Source: Frateuria soli (GTDB lineage Bacteria > Pseudomonadota > Gammaproteobacteria > Xanthomonadales > Rhodanobacteraceae). Taken from it: a DNA stretch of 64,000 nt. Below the pieces are notes generated by a model. It did not search any database. It had not been told where the DNA came from and saw only the letters and a program-made list of their open reading frames with translations. The translations under genes and the position numbers were made by a program. Of the stretch, positions 12,785 to 29,945 are shown piece by piece. The stretch covers positions 558,001-622,000 of the forward strand of contig NZ_CP088252.1 in the NCBI RefSeq assembly GCF_021117385.1. The letters are read 5' to 3'. Position 1 is the first letter of the stretch, and every line of letters starts with the position of its first letter.

Positions 12785-13316
12785 GGCAAAGGCCTCCCCC
12801 TCTCCCCAACCCTCTCCCCCGGCAGGCCGGGGGAGAGGGAGCCGATTGCGCGGGTTTGGGAACCTGTTCTTTTGCCCCAAAGCCCGCTCAGAAGGAAAAG
12901 CGGCAAGCTCGCCCGATCAGCCCCCTCTCCAGACGGGCCGGGGGAGAGGGAGCCGATGGCGCGGGTTTGGAAACCTGTTCTTTTGCCCCAAAGCCCGCTC
13001 AGAAGGAAAAGCGGCAAGCTCACCCGATCAGCCCCCTCTCCAGACGGGCCGTGGGAGAGGGAGCCGATGGCGCGGGTTTGGAAACCTGTTCTTTTGCCCC
13101 AAAGCCCGCTCAGAAGGAAAAGCGGCAAGCTCACCCGATCAGCTCCCTCTCCCCCCGCGGGCCGGGGAAGAGGGAGTCGATGGCGCGGGTTGGAAACCCG
13201 TTCTTCTGCCCCACCGCCCGCTCAGTAGGAAAAGCGGCAAGCTCGCCCGATCAGCCCCTCTCCCCCGGCCCCGCCGGGGGAGAGGGTTGGGGAGAGGGGG
13301 AGGTCTTTGCTCGCGT
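12785..13316. repeat. Tandem array of about 111-bp units with CTCTCCCC palindromes
   Basis: Units begin with GCCGATGGCGCGGGTTTGG-like sequence at 12841, 12952, 13063 and 13176 (spacing 111, 111 and 113). Each unit carries a core containing TTTTGCCCCAAAGCCCGCTC and ends in a CCTCTCC...GGGAGAGG inverted repeat. Both outer edges are CCTCCCCCTCTCCCCAACC / GGTTGGGGAGAGGGGGAGG in opposite orientation. It fills the gap between the convergent udgX-type gene and dnaE2. No gene is credible here: frames across it are repeats of the same peptide. Confidence 0.9.
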
Positions 13317-16300
13317 CTAATGAAAATCCCGCGACCGCACGTCCAGCTCGCCCAGCATCGGCGTCAGGTCCTCCAGCGAATGGGCGATCAGATGCTGCAC
13401 GCCATGTTCGCTCTCCAGGTGGCCTTCGATCGCCAGCAGCCGCGACGCCAGCAGCACGCGGCGCTGGCGAAGCACCACGCGCCGCCAGATCACCACGTTG
13501 GTCAGCCCGAACTCGTCCTCGATGGTCAGGAACACCACGCCGCTGGCGGTCTGCGGCTGCTGGCGCAGGGTGACGATGCCGGCCACGCGCACGGAACGTC
13601 CGTTCGGCAGCGCGGCCAGCTCGTTGGAGGCGCGGTAATGCCGCGCGCGCAGCCGCGGGCGAAGCAACCGCAGCGGATGCGGCCCCAGCGTGGTGCCAGT
13701 GAGCGCGTAGTCGGCGCGCAGGTCTTCGCCACGCGAGGGCAGCGGCAGCGCGATGGCCTCGGTTTCGGGCGTGGAGGCGGGGAACAACGGCAACTGCGGT
13801 TCCACCCCGGCGATCGCCCAGCGTGCGCGGTGGCGATGGCCGGCCAGCGCGCGCAGCGCGCCGGCATCGGCGAGCAGTCCCTGGTCGCGGCGGTCGAGCT
13901 GCGCGCGAATGCTCAGATCCGCCACGTCGACGAACGGCCGCTGTTCGCGGGCAGCCGTGATGTCCCTGGCGGTCGCCTCGGAAAACCCGCGGATCAGCCG
14001 CAGGCCCATGCGGATCGCCGGCTGCAGCTGCGCATCGCGCTCGGGTTCCAAAGTGCAGTCCCAGTGGCTGTGGCGCACGTCGACCGGCAGCGTGCGGATG
14101 CCGTGGCGGCGCGCGTCCTGCAGCAGCTGGTCGGGCGAGTAGAAGCCCATCGGCGCGGAGTTGATCAGCGCGCAGGCGAACGCCGCCGGCTCGTGGCATT
14201 TGAGCCAGCTGCTGACGTAGGCGAGCAGGGCGAAGCTGGCCGCGTGCGATTCGGGGAAGCCGTAGCTGCCGAAGCCCTTGATCTGCTCGAACAGGTGTTC
14301 GGCGAACTCGCGGCTGTAGCCGTTCTTCAACATGCCGGCGAGCAGCTTTTCGCGATGCGGCTCCAGCCCCCCATGGCGCTTCCAGGCGGCCATCGAGCGG
14401 CGCAGCGCATCGGCCTGGCTCCCGCTGAAATCGGCGGCCTTCATGGCAATCTGCATCACCTGTTCCTGGAACAGCGGGACGCCCAGCGTGCGCTTGAGAA
14501 CGTCCTTCAACGCGTCGGAGGGGTAGCTGACCTCCTCCTCGCCGTTACGCCGGCGCAGGTAGGGATGGACCATGTCGCCCTGGATCGGGCCCGGCCGCAC
14601 GATCGCCACCTCGATCACCAGGTCGTAGAACTGGCGCGGTTTCAGGCGCGGCAGCATGGCCATCTGCGCGCGCGACTCGATCTGGAACACGCCGATGGTG
14701 TCGGCGCGGCTGATCATCTCGTAGGTGGGCTTGTCGTCCTTGTGGTCCTTGTTGATGCCGGCGATGGTGTACTCGCCACGGCCGCTGTCGCGCAGCAGGT
14801 CGAAGGTCTTGCGCAGGGCGGTGAGCATGCCCAGCGCCAGGCAGTCCACCTTCAGCATGCCCAGCGTGTCCAGGTCGTCCTTGTTCCACTCGATCACCGT
14901 GCGGCCGTCCATCGCGGTGTTCTCCACCGGCACCAGCGTGGAGAGCGGATGCTCGGAGATGACGAAGCCGCCCGGGTGCTGGGAGAGGTGGCGCGGAAAG
15001 CCGATCAGTTGCGCGGTGAGCGCGAGCACCTGGCGGATCAGTGGCGTGTCCGGATCGAAGCCGCGCTCGCGCAGTCGGTCCGACGGCGGCACCTCGCCGC
15101 TCCAGCGGTCCAGCGTGGCGGACAGTTCGCCGGCCAGCTCCGGCGTCATGCCCAGCGCGCGCGCCACGTCGCGGACCGCGCCACGCCCGCGGTACTCGGT
15201 GGCCACCGCGGTGAGCGCGGCGCGGTCGCGGCCGTAGCGGTCGAATACGTACTGCAGCACTTCCTCGCGGCGTTCGTGTTCGAAGTCGACGTCGATGTCC
15301 GGCGGCTCGTCGCGGTCGGCCGAGATGAAGCGCTCGAAGAGCAGGTTGCTCGTTGCCGGATCGGCCTCGGTGATGCCGAGCGCGAAGCAGACCAGCGAAT
15401 TGGCCGCCGAGCCGCGGCCCTGGCAGAGGATGCCCTTCGAGCGCGCGAAGCGGACGATGTCGTGCACGGTGAGGAAATAGGACTCGTACGCCTTGAGCTG
15501 GATGAGGTCCAGTTCGGCTTCGATCTGCCTGCGCCATGCTTCCTTGGCGCGGTCCGGCCAGCGCCAGCGCACGCCTTCCTCGACCAGTTGGCGCAGCCAG
15601 CTGGTCGGGGTGTGGCCCTGCGGCACAAGTTCGTGCGGGTAGGTGTATTCGAGTTCTTCCAGCCTGAAGGTGCAGCGCTGCGCGATCGCCACGCTCTCGG
15701 CCAGCAGTTCGGGCGGATAGATGGCCGCGAGCGCGCGACGCGTACGCAGATGGCGCTCGCCGTTGGGGAACAGGCGGTGGCCGGCCTGCGCCACGGTGGT
15801 GTGGTGGCGGATCGCAGTCATCACGTCCTGCAACGGGCGGCGGGCGCGCACGTGCATGTGCGCGTCGCCGCTGGCAACCAGTGGCAGGCCGAGGTGCTCG
15901 CCGACGGTGCGCAGGGCGGCCAGGCGCGCGGCGTCGTCGGGACCGCGGTGCAGCTCGACCGCGAGCCAGCAGCGGTCCGGGAAGCGTTCCTTCAGCCAGC
16001 TGCCTTCGGCCGCGTCCGGTCGCGCGCCGGGCAGCCACAGGGCGAGCAGGCCCTCGGTGTCGCCCAGGTCCTCGCGCAGGGATTCGTAGCGGCCCTTGGG
16101 CGCGCGGCGGCGCGCGGTGGTGATCAGCTGGCACAGCCGTGCATAGCCTTGCTGGTTCTCCACCAGCAGCACGCAGCGGAGTCCATCGGAAAACCGGAAC
16201 TCGCTGCCGACGATCAGCCTGATGCCGCTCTCGCGCGAAGCCTCCAGCGCCCGCACGATGCCGGCGAGGGTGCATTCGTCGGTGATCGCGAGCGCGCTGT

Positions 16301-16406
16301 AGCCTTGTTGCTTCGCACGCTCGAACAGCTCGATCGCCAGCGAGGCGCCGCGCTGGAAGCTGAAGGCGGAGAGGCAGTGGAGCTCGGCATAGGCGGGGAG
16401 GCTCAT
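13317..16406 (-). CDS. dnaE2: Error-prone DNA polymerase DnaE2 (ImuC)
   Basis: This 1029-residue C-family polymerase starts [22 protein letters not shown] (N-terminal PHP domain). The palm motif [12 protein letters not shown] at about residue 370 holds the catalytic aspartates, and helix-hairpin-helix and OB-fold regions follow to the end ([19 protein letters not shown]). DnaE2 is the polymerase of the ImuA-ImuB-DnaE2 mutasome that extends across lesions and causes damage-induced mutagenesis. ATG 16406 has GGAGGGT upstream. It is the last gene of the lexA-imuA-imuB group. The 180-bp gap to imuB holds a family B repeat and a relay ORF that ends 4 bases before this start. Confidence 0.95.
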
Positions 16407-16410
16407 GCCG

Positions 16411-16590
16411 CTACCCTCCGGCTCTGCCGGGCGCTCCGGAGACGCTGCGCCGCCCCTTCGCCTTTTGTAGGAGCGCACCTTGTGCGCGACCGGTAACGCC
16501 GTACGTTGCGGGTACGCGGGGATGACGGTCGCGCACAGGGTGCGCTCCTACAGGAAAGGCATGCGCGGCAATCGTGGCCGGGAGGCTCAT
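16411..16590 (-). other. Relay ORF linking imuB stop to dnaE2 start
   Basis: This frame encodes 59 codons. Its ATG overlaps the imuB TGA (ATGA at 16587-16590) and its TAG (16411-16413) lies 4 bases before the dnaE2 ATG. It begins MSLPA, like DnaE2 itself, because the dnaE2 start region is duplicated: GGCGGGGAGGCTCATGC (16392-16408) and GGCCGGGAGGCTCATGC (16576-16592), 16 of 17 identical, plus strand. Most of the rest is read from the palindromic repeat. It is unlikely to make a functional protein; it may carry ribosomes from imuB to dnaE2. Confidence 0.5.
16467..16551. repeat. Palindromic repeat, family B, copy 3
   Basis: Arms GTAGGAGCGCACCTTGTGCG and CGCACAGGGTGCGCTCCTAC with inner GCGACCG...CGGTCGC. 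It lies inside the imuB-dnaE2 junction, within a segment bounded by a 17-bp direct repeat of the dnaE2 start. Confidence 0.93.
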
Positions 16591-17990
16591 GCGAACCACC
16601 CGTGCAGCATGAAGCCTTCGCGTTCGCCGACCGGGCAGTAGGCCCAGGCGCGTTGTCCGGCGGCGGTTTCGACCACGTAGTAATCGCGTCGCACGTCGCC
16701 GTCCCACCAGCCGCTCTCGACACGCTCGGGGCCGGCCAGGATGCGCAGCCCGCGTTCGCGCAGCGGAATCGGTCGCGGCAGCAGCCAGCCGGGGCGGGGC
16801 AGGGGCGGGGCTTCGGCACTGTCGCCGTGATCGCGCCATGCGCGCTCGGGACGGTGATCGGCGCGGATCGACAGGCCGTGCACGGCCTCGTCGCCCAGCC
16901 GCGCGCGCAGGCGTTCGCGCAGCTGTTCCCAGGGCACCGCCTGTTGCGGACGTACGTCGAACAGGTCACGGCCGGCCGGCACGAACGGCGGCAGTTCGCG
17001 TGCGATCAGTTGCAGGGCGCGTACCGGCGCGGCCAGTTGCACCAGGTCGAGCCGGCCGCGGGCCAGTTCGAACAGCATGCCCGCATCACGCTCGGGGGCA
17101 AGCAGGCCGACCGGCACTTCGGTGGCGGCGCCGCGTTCGTGCTCCAGCCGCAGCACGAAGCGCTGCACGCCGCCGTCGCGACCGGCCAGGTACGCGGCGA
17201 GATCGCCGGTCATGCGACGCAGCGGGAACAGCAACTGCCCGGTGGCACCGACCTCGTAGTTGAATTCGATGCGCGATTCGAAATGGTCCGGCGGCTGGTA
17301 GCAGTCCAGCGGCGTGGCGAGCGCTCCGGTGAGGCGATCGAGCTGGTCGAGGGTGTCGGTGCCCACGCGCCGGCCCAGCGCCGCGCGCGGCAGGGCGTAG
17401 ACCTGGACGAGCCGGCGCAGGCCCATGCGGCGCAGGCTGTCGGCCGCCTCGGGCGGAAGACCGGCACGCTCCACCGGCAACTGGCCGAGGGCCTGCTTCA
17501 GCGGCGCGTCGTGGGTGATCGCCAGGCCGTCGTGCACGCCGGCCAGGGCGCGCGCGGCCCAGGGATTGGGCGCCAGTGCGATGCGGTGGCGGAAGCCGAG
17601 CGCGACCAGGTCCTCGCGCAGCAGCGCCTCCATCCGCGGCCAGGGGCCGAACAGGCGGAAGCTCGCCTCCACTTCGACCAGCAGCGAGGCCGGCATCTGC
17701 CGGCTGACCTGCGCGCCGTAGCGGTAGGCCCAGGCGGCGAGGAAATCGTGCCAGCGCGTGGTTTCGGCCGGATCGTGCTCGACCGTGGCGAAGCGCGCGC
17801 AGATCGCCTGCGCGGTGGCCAACGGCAGGCCCGCGCGCAGGCCTTGTGCCTTCGCCGCGGCGTTGACCGCGCGCAGTACGCGCCGCTGCACGGGGCCGTC
17901 GACCAGCACCAGCGGCTCGTCGGGATCGGCATGACGACGAAGGACGCCATCGAGCGCCAGCTGCGGCAACAGGATGCAGGCCCACAACAT
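16587..17990 (-). CDS. imuB: Y-family polymerase homologue ImuB
   Basis: This is a 467-residue DinB-like protein. The N-terminus MLWACILLPQLALDGVLRR lacks the usual catalytic aspartate of Y-family motif I, as expected for ImuB, which is a non-catalytic adaptor. A GQLLFPL stretch near residue 250 is a candidate beta-clamp-binding motif. The C-terminus (GWWDGDVRRDYYVVETAAGQ, then LHGWFA) is the conserved ImuB tail. ImuB links ImuA, DnaE2 and the sliding clamp. The start at 17990 was chosen by homology; the gene begins 10 bases after the imuA stop. Confidence 0.93.
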   Translation of the reverse strand: MLWACILLPQLALDGVLRRHADPDEPLVLVDGPVQRRVLRAVNAAAKAQGLRAGLPLATAQAICARFATVEHDPAETTRWHDFLAAWAYRYGAQVSRQMPASLLVEVEASFRLFGPWPRMEALLREDLVALGFRHRIALAPNPWAARALAGVHDGLAITHDAPLKQALGQLPVERAGLPPEAADSLRRMGLRRLVQVYALPRAALGRRVGTDTLDQLDRLTGALATPLDCYQPPDHFESRIEFNYEVGATGQLLFPLRRMTGDLAAYLAGRDGGVQRFVLRLEHERGAATEVPVGLLAPERDAGMLFELARGRLDLVQLAAPVRALQLIARELPPFVPAGRDLFDVRPQQAVPWEQLRERLRARLGDEAVHGLSIRADHRPERAWRDHGDSAEAPPLPRPGWLLPRPIPLRERGLRILAGPERVESGWWDGDVRRDYYVVETAAGQRAWAYCPVGEREGFMLHGWFA

Positions 17991-18000
17991 GCCGTGGGCC

Positions 18001-18672
18001 TCAGGCGCGATCCGGGACAGCCGTGACGTGGCTGTCCGGGATGGTTTCGGGCGTGCCCACCGGCAGCGGCCAGGGCAGCGGCTGCGACGGCGGGTTGCCA
18101 CCGCGGCACTTGAGCACGCGCAGGCGCGCGGGGCGGGTTTCCAGCACCAACCGCAGCGCGGCGGGCGAGGCGTGGACCGCCGCCGACGCGGGGCGCATCG
18201 CTACGCCCAAGCACTGGCCGGTTTCGGCCGCCAGTTGCAGCCGGCGCAGCGTGCGGTCGTCGGCCTGCTGCGGCCAGCACAGCACGGCCGCGCAGGCAGC
18301 CGAGCGCAGGCATTGTTCGGTCGCCCAGGGCACGTCTCGTGGCTCGGCACGCACCACCTGCAGCCGCTCCAGCCGCACGCCCGCGTGGGCCCAGGCGGCG
18401 GGGAAGGGCAGGTAGGGCGGACCGATCAGCGCCACCCGCCCGCCGGCCTGCGTCAGGCGCGCGAGCGTGGGCCACAGCAGGCCAAGTTCGCCGATGCCGT
18501 CGAGCGGCAGCAGCACTTCGCTCAGTGCGCCTTCGGGCCAGCCGCCGCTGGGCAGTGCGGTGTCCAGCAACGGGAAGCCGGTCGGCTGGCGCGAGGGCGG
18601 ACGTGCCTGCGGCTGGCCGCGCCAGAGGCGGCGGGCATCGAACAGGTGATCGAGGGCGACGACGTTGCTCAT
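18001..18672 (-). CDS. imuA: Translesion synthesis accessory protein ImuA
   Basis: This is a 223-residue RecA-like ImuA/SulA-related protein. MSNVVALDHLFDARRLWRG and TGFPLLDTALPSGGWPEGALSEVLL are typical of proteobacterial ImuA; the Walker A lysine seen in RecA is absent in the GGWPEGALSEVLL loop. It cooperates with ImuB and DnaE2 in damage-induced mutagenesis and binds RecA in other species. ATG 18672 was preferred over one 18 bases upstream. It is the second gene of the lexA-led group; 199 bases with repeats separate it from lexA. Confidence 0.92.
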   Translation of the reverse strand: MSNVVALDHLFDARRLWRGQPQARPPSRQPTGFPLLDTALPSGGWPEGALSEVLLPLDGIGELGLLWPTLARLTQAGGRVALIGPPYLPFPAAWAHAGVRLERLQVVRAEPRDVPWATEQCLRSAACAAVLCWPQQADDRTLRRLQLAAETGQCLGVAMRPASAAVHASPAALRLVLETRPARLRVLKCRGGNPPSQPLPWPLPVGTPETIPDSHVTAVPDRA

Positions 18673-18690
18673 GCGCGCGCAGCCGTGCAA

Positions 18691-18740
18691 GGGGCTTCAG
18701 CCCGCCATGGGCGCATGGAGCGGAGGACTGAAGCCCGCCC
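18691..18740. repeat. Palindromic repeat, family C
   Basis: GGGGCTTCAGCCCGCC and, after a 20-base loop, ACTGAAGCCCGCCC form an inverted pair around CTTCAG/CTGAAG. It is a different core from families A and B. It lies in the lexA-imuA gap. Confidence 0.75.
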
Positions 18741-18817
18741 TGCGGAACTGTTGGTGACGATGAAGGTGTCCATGTGTGTATTACGTCGCTTCGAGCGAGG
18801 TGCGAGGCCAGCCTTGG

Positions 18818-18854
18818 CCCCTCACCCCGGCCCCCTCCCCACGGGGAGAGGAGG
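18818..18854. repeat. CTCTCCCC-type short element
   Basis: GCCCCTCACCCCGGCCCCCT is followed by CCCCACGGGGAGAGGAGG, with a CTCCCC...GGGGAG inverted pair. It is the same element type as in the arrays at 12785, 29301, 39494 and 54362. It lies just after the lexA stop codon. Confidence 0.8.
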
Positions 18855-18871
18855 CAGTGCATGGAAGGGCA

Positions 18872-19477
18872 TCAGCCGGGCCTCACCAGTCCGGCGAACA
18901 GGCCCTCGATGGCGAAGTCGGTGGCGCGCGGGTCCACTTCGATCGGCGCATAGGCGGGATTGCGCGGCAGCAGGCGGACGCGGCCGTCCCTGCGTTCGAA
19001 CCGCTTGACGGTGAACTCGCCTTCCAGCCGCGCCACCACGGTCTGGCCATGGCGCGCCTCGGGCGTGCGATGCACGCCGATCAGGTCGCCGGGGAGGATG
19101 CCGTCCAGCAGCATCGAATCGCCCACCACTTCCAGCAGGTAGTCCGGCTTGAGGCGGAACAGCGAAGCATCCAGCGCCACTTCGCGACGGACCTCGGCGT
19201 CCGAACCGATCGGCCGGCCCGCCGCCACGCGGCCCAGCAGCGGCACCGTGAGTGCCGGCAGCGGCGGCGGCTGCCGCAGACGGATGCCGCGCGCCTGGCC
19301 GGGCACCAGTTCGATGTGGCCCTCGCGCGCCAGCGCTTCCAGGTGCAGTCGCGCCGAGCGGTTCTGTTTCAGGCCCAGCGCGGCGGCGATCTGCAGCTGC
19401 GAAGGCGGGTAGCCGTGCACCGCGATGTGTTCTCGCAGGTAGTCGAGCAGGGCTTGGCGGGTGGGGCTGAGAATCAT
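18872..19477 (-). CDS. lexA: LexA repressor (cassette-associated, LexA2 type)
   Basis: This is a 201-residue LexA. Winged helix-turn-helix is at 1-65 ([19 protein letters not shown] replaces the usual SPSxREI), the self-cleavage Ala86-Gly87 lies in RVAAGRPIG, the catalytic Ser121 in VGDSMLLDG and Lys158 in FTVKRF. The divergent recognition helix suits the unusual TACTAATATTAGTA operator directly upstream. It represses the SOS-type mutasome genes imuA-imuB-dnaE2 on the same strand and presumably itself. The start at 19477 has no Shine-Dalgarno, and the operator ends 2 bases before it, which implies a leaderless mRNA. A second, canonical lexA may exist elsewhere in the genome. Confidence 0.95.
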
Positions 19478-29305: not shown

Positions 29306-29945
29306 GACGGAGGAAACACGCACGCCGCGGAGACCACCACCTCTCCCTGGCCCCGGGGGAGATGGCTGGGGAGAGGGGGAGGTTCTTCGCTCTGATCGGG
29401 GGACGGCGGAAAAGCCAAAGGCCTCCCCCTCTCCCCAACCCTCTCCCCCGGGCTGTGCCCGGGGGAGAGGGAGTAAGAAGTGCCGCGCCGCGCTACGTCA
29501 CGCTACGTCACGGGCTCCTTGTTTGGATGGACGAAAACCGGCACGCGGCGAGGCCCGCTCCCTCTCCCCCGGCCCCGCCGGGGGAGAGGGCTGGGGAGAG
29601 GGGGAGGCTCTTCGCTCTGATCGGGAGATGGCGAAAGAGCCAAAGGCCTCCCCCTCACCCCAACCCTCTCCCCCGGACTGCGCCTGGGAGAGAGGGAGCA
29701 AGCGGTGCTGCGCCGCGCCGCGCTACGCCCCGGGCTCTTTGTTTGGATGGACGAAAACCGGCACGCGGCGAGGCCCGCTCCCTCTCCCCCGGCCCCGCCG
29801 GGGGAGAGGGCTGGGGAGAGGGGGAGGCTCTTCGCTCTGATCGGGAGATGGCGAAAGAGCCAAAGGCCTCCCCCTCACCCCAACCCTCTCCCCCGGACTG
29901 CGCCCGGGGGAGAGGGAGTAAGCGGCGCCGCTCCGCGCTACCATT
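29301..29945. repeat. Tandem array of three 220-bp units
   Basis: Units start with GTTTGGATGGACGAAAACCG at 29521 and 29741 and a diverged copy at 29301 (GTTTGGACGGAGGAAACACG), so the period is exactly 220. Each has CTCTCCCC/GGGGAGAG inverted pairs, a constant CTCTTCGCTCTGATCGGGAG core and a second CTCTCCCC pair. The last two units are nearly identical, which points to recent duplication. It fills the space between the lipoprotein terminator and the ferredoxin gene; no gene is credible in it. Confidence 0.92.

Follow-up and report, generated by a model that had tools for sequence, protein, structure and literature searches.

A candidate relay frame joining imuB to dnaE2 across a REPIN-bearing spacer in Frateuria

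Known systems and the Frateuria junction

Mycobacterial interspersed repetitive units (MIRUs) enter DTGA sites between overlapping genes. Supply et al. reportedly described, in 1997, a MIRU with a coupled open reading frame (ORF). Section 11 of PMC12548453 places the coupling of the MIRU ORF to the downstream gene at -4 nt. Short ORFs at integron attI1/attC (ORF-11, ORF-17 and ORF-18) are without peptide function, and passages of PMC8876359 say that they hand ribosomes downstream and relieve the hairpin of the recombination site. Coupling by termination and re-initiation at NTGA overlaps is treated in parts of PMC10666635 and PMC12548453, and GTAG-tagged REPs and REPINs with their RAYT in parts of PMC3116915 and PMC3733652.

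The locus described here is the imuB-dnaE2 junction in a stretch of 64,000 nucleotides from Frateuria soli (assembly GCF_021117385.1, contig NZ_CP088252.1, positions 558,001 to 622,000), hereafter the window. By analogy, the MIRU would be its nearest precedent, as in both cases a repeat-bearing segment with a short ORF lies at a start-codon junction; coupling of that ORF downstream is predicted here, and would have the -4 spacing in four congeners. Unlike the MIRU, however, the bridge is not one repeat family but a REPIN, other dispersed repeats or unique sequence, and the repeat does not itself bring the start and stop codons. With the integron ORFs, as excerpted, the locus would share a short ORF that passes ribosomes on and opens a hairpin; in contrast to them, there is no integron, a REPIN forms the hairpin, and the start of the bridging frame lies within the stop codon of the gene before it. 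The 4-nt start/stop overlap of NTGA coupling, as those parts of the two papers describe it, is found at imuB and again at dnaE2 in four congeners, but here two couplings are predicted in series through a non-conserved ORF. Finally, an inward pair of GTAG-tagged palindromes, many copies and a RAYT gene in the genome are what the locus has in common with the REPIN systems in the passages cited, whereas its position between co-directed, normally overlapping genes sets it apart from them. A passage of PMC3733652 notes that REPs also occur within genes and that many of these genes serve replication and repair, which gives a REP in a repair operon some precedent. Judged from the sequences, what distinguishes the locus from these systems is recurrence of the bridge, in largely different sequence, inside one genus. 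Among the open-licence literature matches listed, none dealt with a relay ORF between imuB and dnaE2 or with REPINs of Frateuria.

The junction, its relatives and the two starts

An imuA-imuB-dnaE2 cassette, with ImuA (213.9 bits, cut-off 150), ImuB and error-prone DnaE2 encoded in one direction, is present in the window. The dnaE2 gene (13317-16406, minus strand, start ATG 16406-16404) encodes an error-prone DNA polymerase scoring 1472 bits against PRK05672 (cut-off 939). The product of imuB (16587-17990, minus strand, TGA 16589-16587), which is Y-family polymerase-like, reaches 27.8 bits against DNA polymerase IV models, under their cut-off, and is placed in the cassette by these scores and by position alone; the imuB tails of relatives match it by tblastn, and its start at ATG 17990 is our choice within an ORF open to 18101. 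On the minus strand imuB ends in ...TGG TTC GCA TGA, and the ATG of ATGAGCCTCCCGG (16590-16588) overlaps this stop. From that ATG runs a frame of 59 open codons (16411-16590, minus strand), the proposed relay ORF, whose peptide ends in ...GAPGRAGG and which closes at a TAG (16413-16411) followed by CGGC and then the dnaE2 ATG. The spacer is 180 nt long and the relay stop lies at +4, four bases ahead of dnaE2 and not in exact overlap with it, while a GGAGG Shine-Dalgarno-like site (16415-16419, minus strand) stands 8 nt ahead of the dnaE2 ATG.

Our survey of this junction covered 221 loci from the family and beyond, the window included, which became 184 distinct junctions once 12 without a recognisable imuB upstream and 25 identical ones had been dropped. 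In 128 of the 184 the dnaE2 start lies within the imuB stop, as an NTGA in frame (100 ATGA, 27 GTGA and 1 TTGA); the NTGA at the imuB stop is out of frame with dnaE2 in 27 and missing in 29. From the 128 overlaps, the sequence-only reading most likely had it right that dnaE2 once started over the end of imuB, and direct overlap is the common and probably the ancestral state. Ten or fewer residues precede the YAELHC motif in 94 of the overlaps and more than ten in 34, where long-leader DnaE2 proteins (e.g. L072, L078 and L088) carry up to 150 residues from the imuB NTGA start to YAELHC. Matches were also found in five plasmid records, at 66-70% identity.

The genus was sampled with six genomes, the window included, and four of the six bear the name Frateuria in their records (F. 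flava, F. terrea, Frateuria sp. STR12 and a Frateuria metagenome-assembled genome, MAG). In none of the six does YAELHC come within 10 residues of the imuB ATGA. In four of the five congeners a frame opens at the imuB ATGA and has its stop exactly in the ATGA of dnaE2, with 67-181 nt of largely different spacer sequence to cross: 24 codons over 67 nt in the closest congener (G001), 40 over 115 nt in F. terrea, 62 over 181 nt in F. flava and 60 over 175 nt in STR12. An NTGA overlap on both sides of the ORF is accordingly seen in G001, G002, G003 and G005, and on the imuB side only in the window. In the MAG the imuB ATGA starts DnaE2 itself, with the frame fused and 43 residues ahead of AYAEL. 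The spacers also differ in kind. Those of the window and F. flava hold a REPIN, that of STR12 contains a dispersed repeat with 67 match rows in its own genome (itself and both strands counted), that of F. terrea contains another dispersed repeat with 11 (itself included), and that of G001 has no second match in the G001 genome. The bridging ORF is therefore not part of a conserved mobile repeat, since the spacers differ between species.

The two ends of the window's spacer resemble each other. Two copies of a 17-bp direct repeat, GGCCGGGAGGCTCATGC at 16576-16592 (the upstream copy) and GGCGGGGAGGCTCATGC at 16392-16408 (the downstream copy), agree at 16 of 17 positions, with one mismatch, and both read GCATGAGCCTCCC on the minus strand, to which they belong; within them ATGAGCCTCCC is present at the imuB stop and again at the current dnaE2 start. 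The repeats, their coordinates and the 59-codon frame had been picked out beforehand from the letters, and all held when we rechecked the sequence. No 17-mer direct repeat in the 210-bp stretch does better than 16/17, and 1 of 3000 dinucleotide shuffles reached 16; of 608 such stretches taken along the window, tandem arrays among them, 10 gave 16 or 17.

Within this repeat, 10 of the 11 bases 3' of the ATGA core agree between the two start contexts. The corresponding null, drawn from a 175-junction set outside genus pairings and the overlap class, gave a maximum of 8 in 932 upstream/downstream comparisons, and a looser one, which let in related species and overlapping starts, reached 10 in 0.6% of 6575. 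When the second start of the window was set against 124 dnaE2 starts of relatives that truly overlap imuB, agreement reached 9 with 3 of them. Seen in these comparisons, the near-identity of the two contexts is greater than ordinary start-codon likeness. It is strongest in the window alone and not traceable to the base of the genus, with agreement over the same 11 bases of 7 in G001, 5 in F. flava, 4 in STR12 and 3 in F. terrea. Relatives with overlapping starts encode similar peptides, and the upstream copy can plausibly be seen as what is left of a dnaE2 start that overlapped imuB in the ancestor.

The REPIN and the origin of the second start

The element called a family B repeat in the sequence-only reading is a REPIN. 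At 16467-16551, two GTAG-tagged REP palindromes face inward (GTAGGAGCG...CGCTCCTAC), the element (GTAGGAGCGCACC...GGTGCGCTCCTAC) forming a strong hairpin in the mRNA; RNA from 16395 to 16600 folds as a long hairpin at -114.8 kcal/mol (z -6.2). Across the genome of 3.49 Mb it gave 94 and 96 match rows, with both strands of palindromic places counted. REPIN-type doublets, of two stem types, occur at seven places in the window, and the window together with 28 scanned loci of the same genome yields 23 distinct doublet rows, two of which overlap, again of two stem types. Pfam Y1_Tnp is found at two genome places. One of these genes passes the RAYT model NF047646 (127 bits, cut-off 80) and has GTAGGAGC tags about 0.2 and 1.1 kb away; the second Y1-transposase-like gene (G000:C1:2265723-2266049) scores 63.8 bits, under the RAYT cut-off of 80, and no exact GTAGGAGC tag occurs within its 3.3-kb locus. 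F. flava (L011) has its REPIN in the corresponding position, where the two stem arms have changed to match each other, from GTAG/CTAC to GCAG/CTGC, as judged by eye. G001 may have lost its REPIN or may never have had one. No Rfam match was found at gathering scores over 15900-19400.

Other repeats lie nearby. Just 3' of dnaE2, window positions 12810-13286 hold a tandem array of a 111-bp unit (4.3 copies) built around a CCCTCTCCC...GGGAGAGGG palindrome, and a second array at 29353-29938 (220-bp unit, 2.6 copies) has similar CCCTCTCCC/GGGAGAGGG stretches. Hairpin-rich junctions were also seen in other genera (L169, L181, L206, L082, L124, L111 and L214, with fold z from -4.2 to -10.3), and in the 175-junction set 9 of the 57 spacers of at least 36 nt had a fold z of -3 or lower. 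Hairpin repeats may have landed at the imuB-dnaE2 junction time and again.

According to the sequence-only reading, the repeat-bearing segment would, by its own insertion, have doubled a 17-bp target with the start codon in it, in the manner of a target-site duplication. An effect on DnaE2 dose and mutation rate was predicted along with it. A repeat that is unlikely by chance and an ancestral overlap that is likely are what one would expect from it, yet the direct repeats do not abut the REPIN but keep 24 and 58 bases away from it, and both ATGA ends are present in G001, which lacks a REPIN. Neither do they recur at other copies: the other 22 doublet rows (two overlapping) gave flank scores of 5-10 against 14 here, where mismatched pairs average 6.6 (sd 1.1), so the search for comparable direct repeats around other copies came up empty among the doublets scanned. 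F. flava, too, has the REPIN, yet past its two ATGAs no more than 5 of 11 bases match. A REPIN target-site duplication is thereby largely refuted, and we regard it as very improbable; the relay frame, which that reading mentioned without being able to see its recurrence in the genus with other sequence, is the stronger part of the original observation.

Alternatively, the second start could have come from slippage or a short tandem duplication, with the spacer growing inside it later, an origin that is compatible with either view of the spacer's function considered below and that we hold to be possible but rather unlikely. A parallel for a duplicated start is seen in another genus, where L197 carries two copies of TCGCATGAGC at a distance of 14 bp, which creates an ATGA-ATGA frame of 5 codons with an NTGA overlap on both sides, and L149, of the same genus, has the same 14-bp spacing of its duplicated ATGA and a 5-codon frame. 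The spacers of the window and G001, on the other side, bear no similarity to the imuB tail or the dnaE2 head beyond that of shuffles. Long tandem duplication of either gene end was rejected for the nine loci compared, as the lack of such similarity means that it has left no trace.

The bridging frame and translational coupling

We next consider whether bridging is more frequent than chance. Nineteen spacers of at least 30 nt with an out-of-frame NTGA entered the test; a spacer was counted as bridged when its frame ended within -4 to +10 of the dnaE2 start, and the expectation came from shuffled spacers whose length was varied by 0-2 bases, with frame 0 excluded. Eight spacers shorter than 30 nt lie outside the test, and two of these (L149 and L197) are exact ATGA-ATGA bridges. 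With species treated as independent, which they are not, 10 of the 19 were bridged against 3.51 expected (p 0.00016), as were all five spacer-type genomes of the genus against 1.35 (p 0.001) and 5 of the 14 outside it against 2.16 (p 0.029). Taking one per genus or lineage (10 units) gave a mean of 4.3 bridged against 1.3 (median p 0.0105). Chance would hardly produce the 127-codon bridge of L093, and with that locus set aside the figures were 3.2 against 1.3 (median p 0.08). When spacer length was kept, 10 of 18 were bridged against 6.3 expected (p 0.011); restricting this to lengths of 30-250 nt left 9 of 17, again against 6.3 (p 0.055). These statistics lend moderate support, short of proof, to a coupling that has been preserved.

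It is also conceivable that the gap is a neutral intergenic spacer and that dnaE2 is translated from its own Shine-Dalgarno site, the open frame and the ATGA ends arising incidentally from high GC, from the way imuB ends (WFA*, GCATGA) and from second codons that are AGC/AAC. Stops are no scarcer in the relay frame than in the other two (8, 10 and 11 over 25 junctions), and in the five genomes of the genus the stops by frame are 1 (the window's own TAG), 4 and 0, so that the third frame is equally open; nine of the 19 long spacers are unbridged, the GGAGG ahead of dnaE2 is in place, and the genus-collapsed test weakens without L093. Against this, bridging exceeds the shuffled expectation both within the genus and overall, and the genus has four exact ATGA-ATGA bridges through largely different sequence. 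We consider a neutral spacer a serious possibility, although one to be put below an even chance.

The relay peptide has no NCBIfam match, and between the window and F. flava the shared REPIN part of the frame has 3, 7 and 7 substitutions at codon positions 1, 2 and 3 (counted by eye), a pattern without third-position bias which indicates that the peptide is not conserved; on these two grounds a conserved relay peptide was ruled out.

What we propose instead, tentatively and with a confidence only slightly short of even, is a MIRU-like relay cistron that preserves the translational coupling of ImuB to DnaE2, a prediction made from sequence. In the ancestor, a dnaE2 start overlapping the imuB stop (NTGA) would have let ribosomes finishing ImuB re-initiate on dnaE2. 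The junction would then have opened in the ancestry of the genus, a second ATGA start of dnaE2 coming to lie downstream, and the gap would have gathered dispersed palindromic repeats, in the window the REPIN. The old ATGA would have been retained and its frame kept open by selection across the spacer to the new dnaE2 start. Ribosomes are predicted to re-initiate at this ATGA, to translate through the relay and melt the REPIN hairpin, and then, having stopped at the TAG that lies four bases ahead of dnaE2, to be passed on by re-initiating there, aided by the GGAGG. Translation of the relay may also limit Rho-dependent polarity, which is described in parts of PMC12548453 and whose role here we infer.

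How far such a relay would be needed depends on the reach of direct re-initiation. At three E. coli gene pairs, re-initiation was down by 80-90% or gone at a stop-start distance of +38 nt (PMC10666635, section 6), and on these distances direct coupling across 67-181 nt should be weakened or lost if the relay is not translated. Other studies, as reported in a passage of PMC12548453, found coupling intact up to +25 nt and lost only gradually from +50 to +350 nt, in which case the relay may not be needed; coupling may even be unnecessary, since dnaE2 has its own Shine-Dalgarno site in the window. Each of the five second starts in the genus has a Shine-Dalgarno match of 4-5 nt, whereas the ATGA at the imuB stop has only GGTG, and outside the genus only two of the five bridged second starts have a match (counts from the 175-junction set). 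The sites in the genus may help re-initiation yet also permit independent initiation, so that coupling may be strong or weak.

More broadly, the junction could be selected for coupling as such. Once mobile palindromic repeats had parted the genes, the link would be regained either by extension of DnaE2 from the old NTGA or by a relay cistron independent of its sequence, so that mutasome stoichiometry would be kept while the intervening DNA was free to change. We hold this wider view to be possible, though less likely than not.

If the relay works as proposed, the junction would show an operon absorbing hairpin repeats between tightly coupled genes without losing their coordinated translation. 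The genus would also offer a natural series of constructs, from 24 to 62 codons and of largely different sequences, for the study of serial termination-reinitiation. Moreover, the supply of ImuB and that of DnaE2, and hence SOS mutagenesis, would be tied together at the level of translation.
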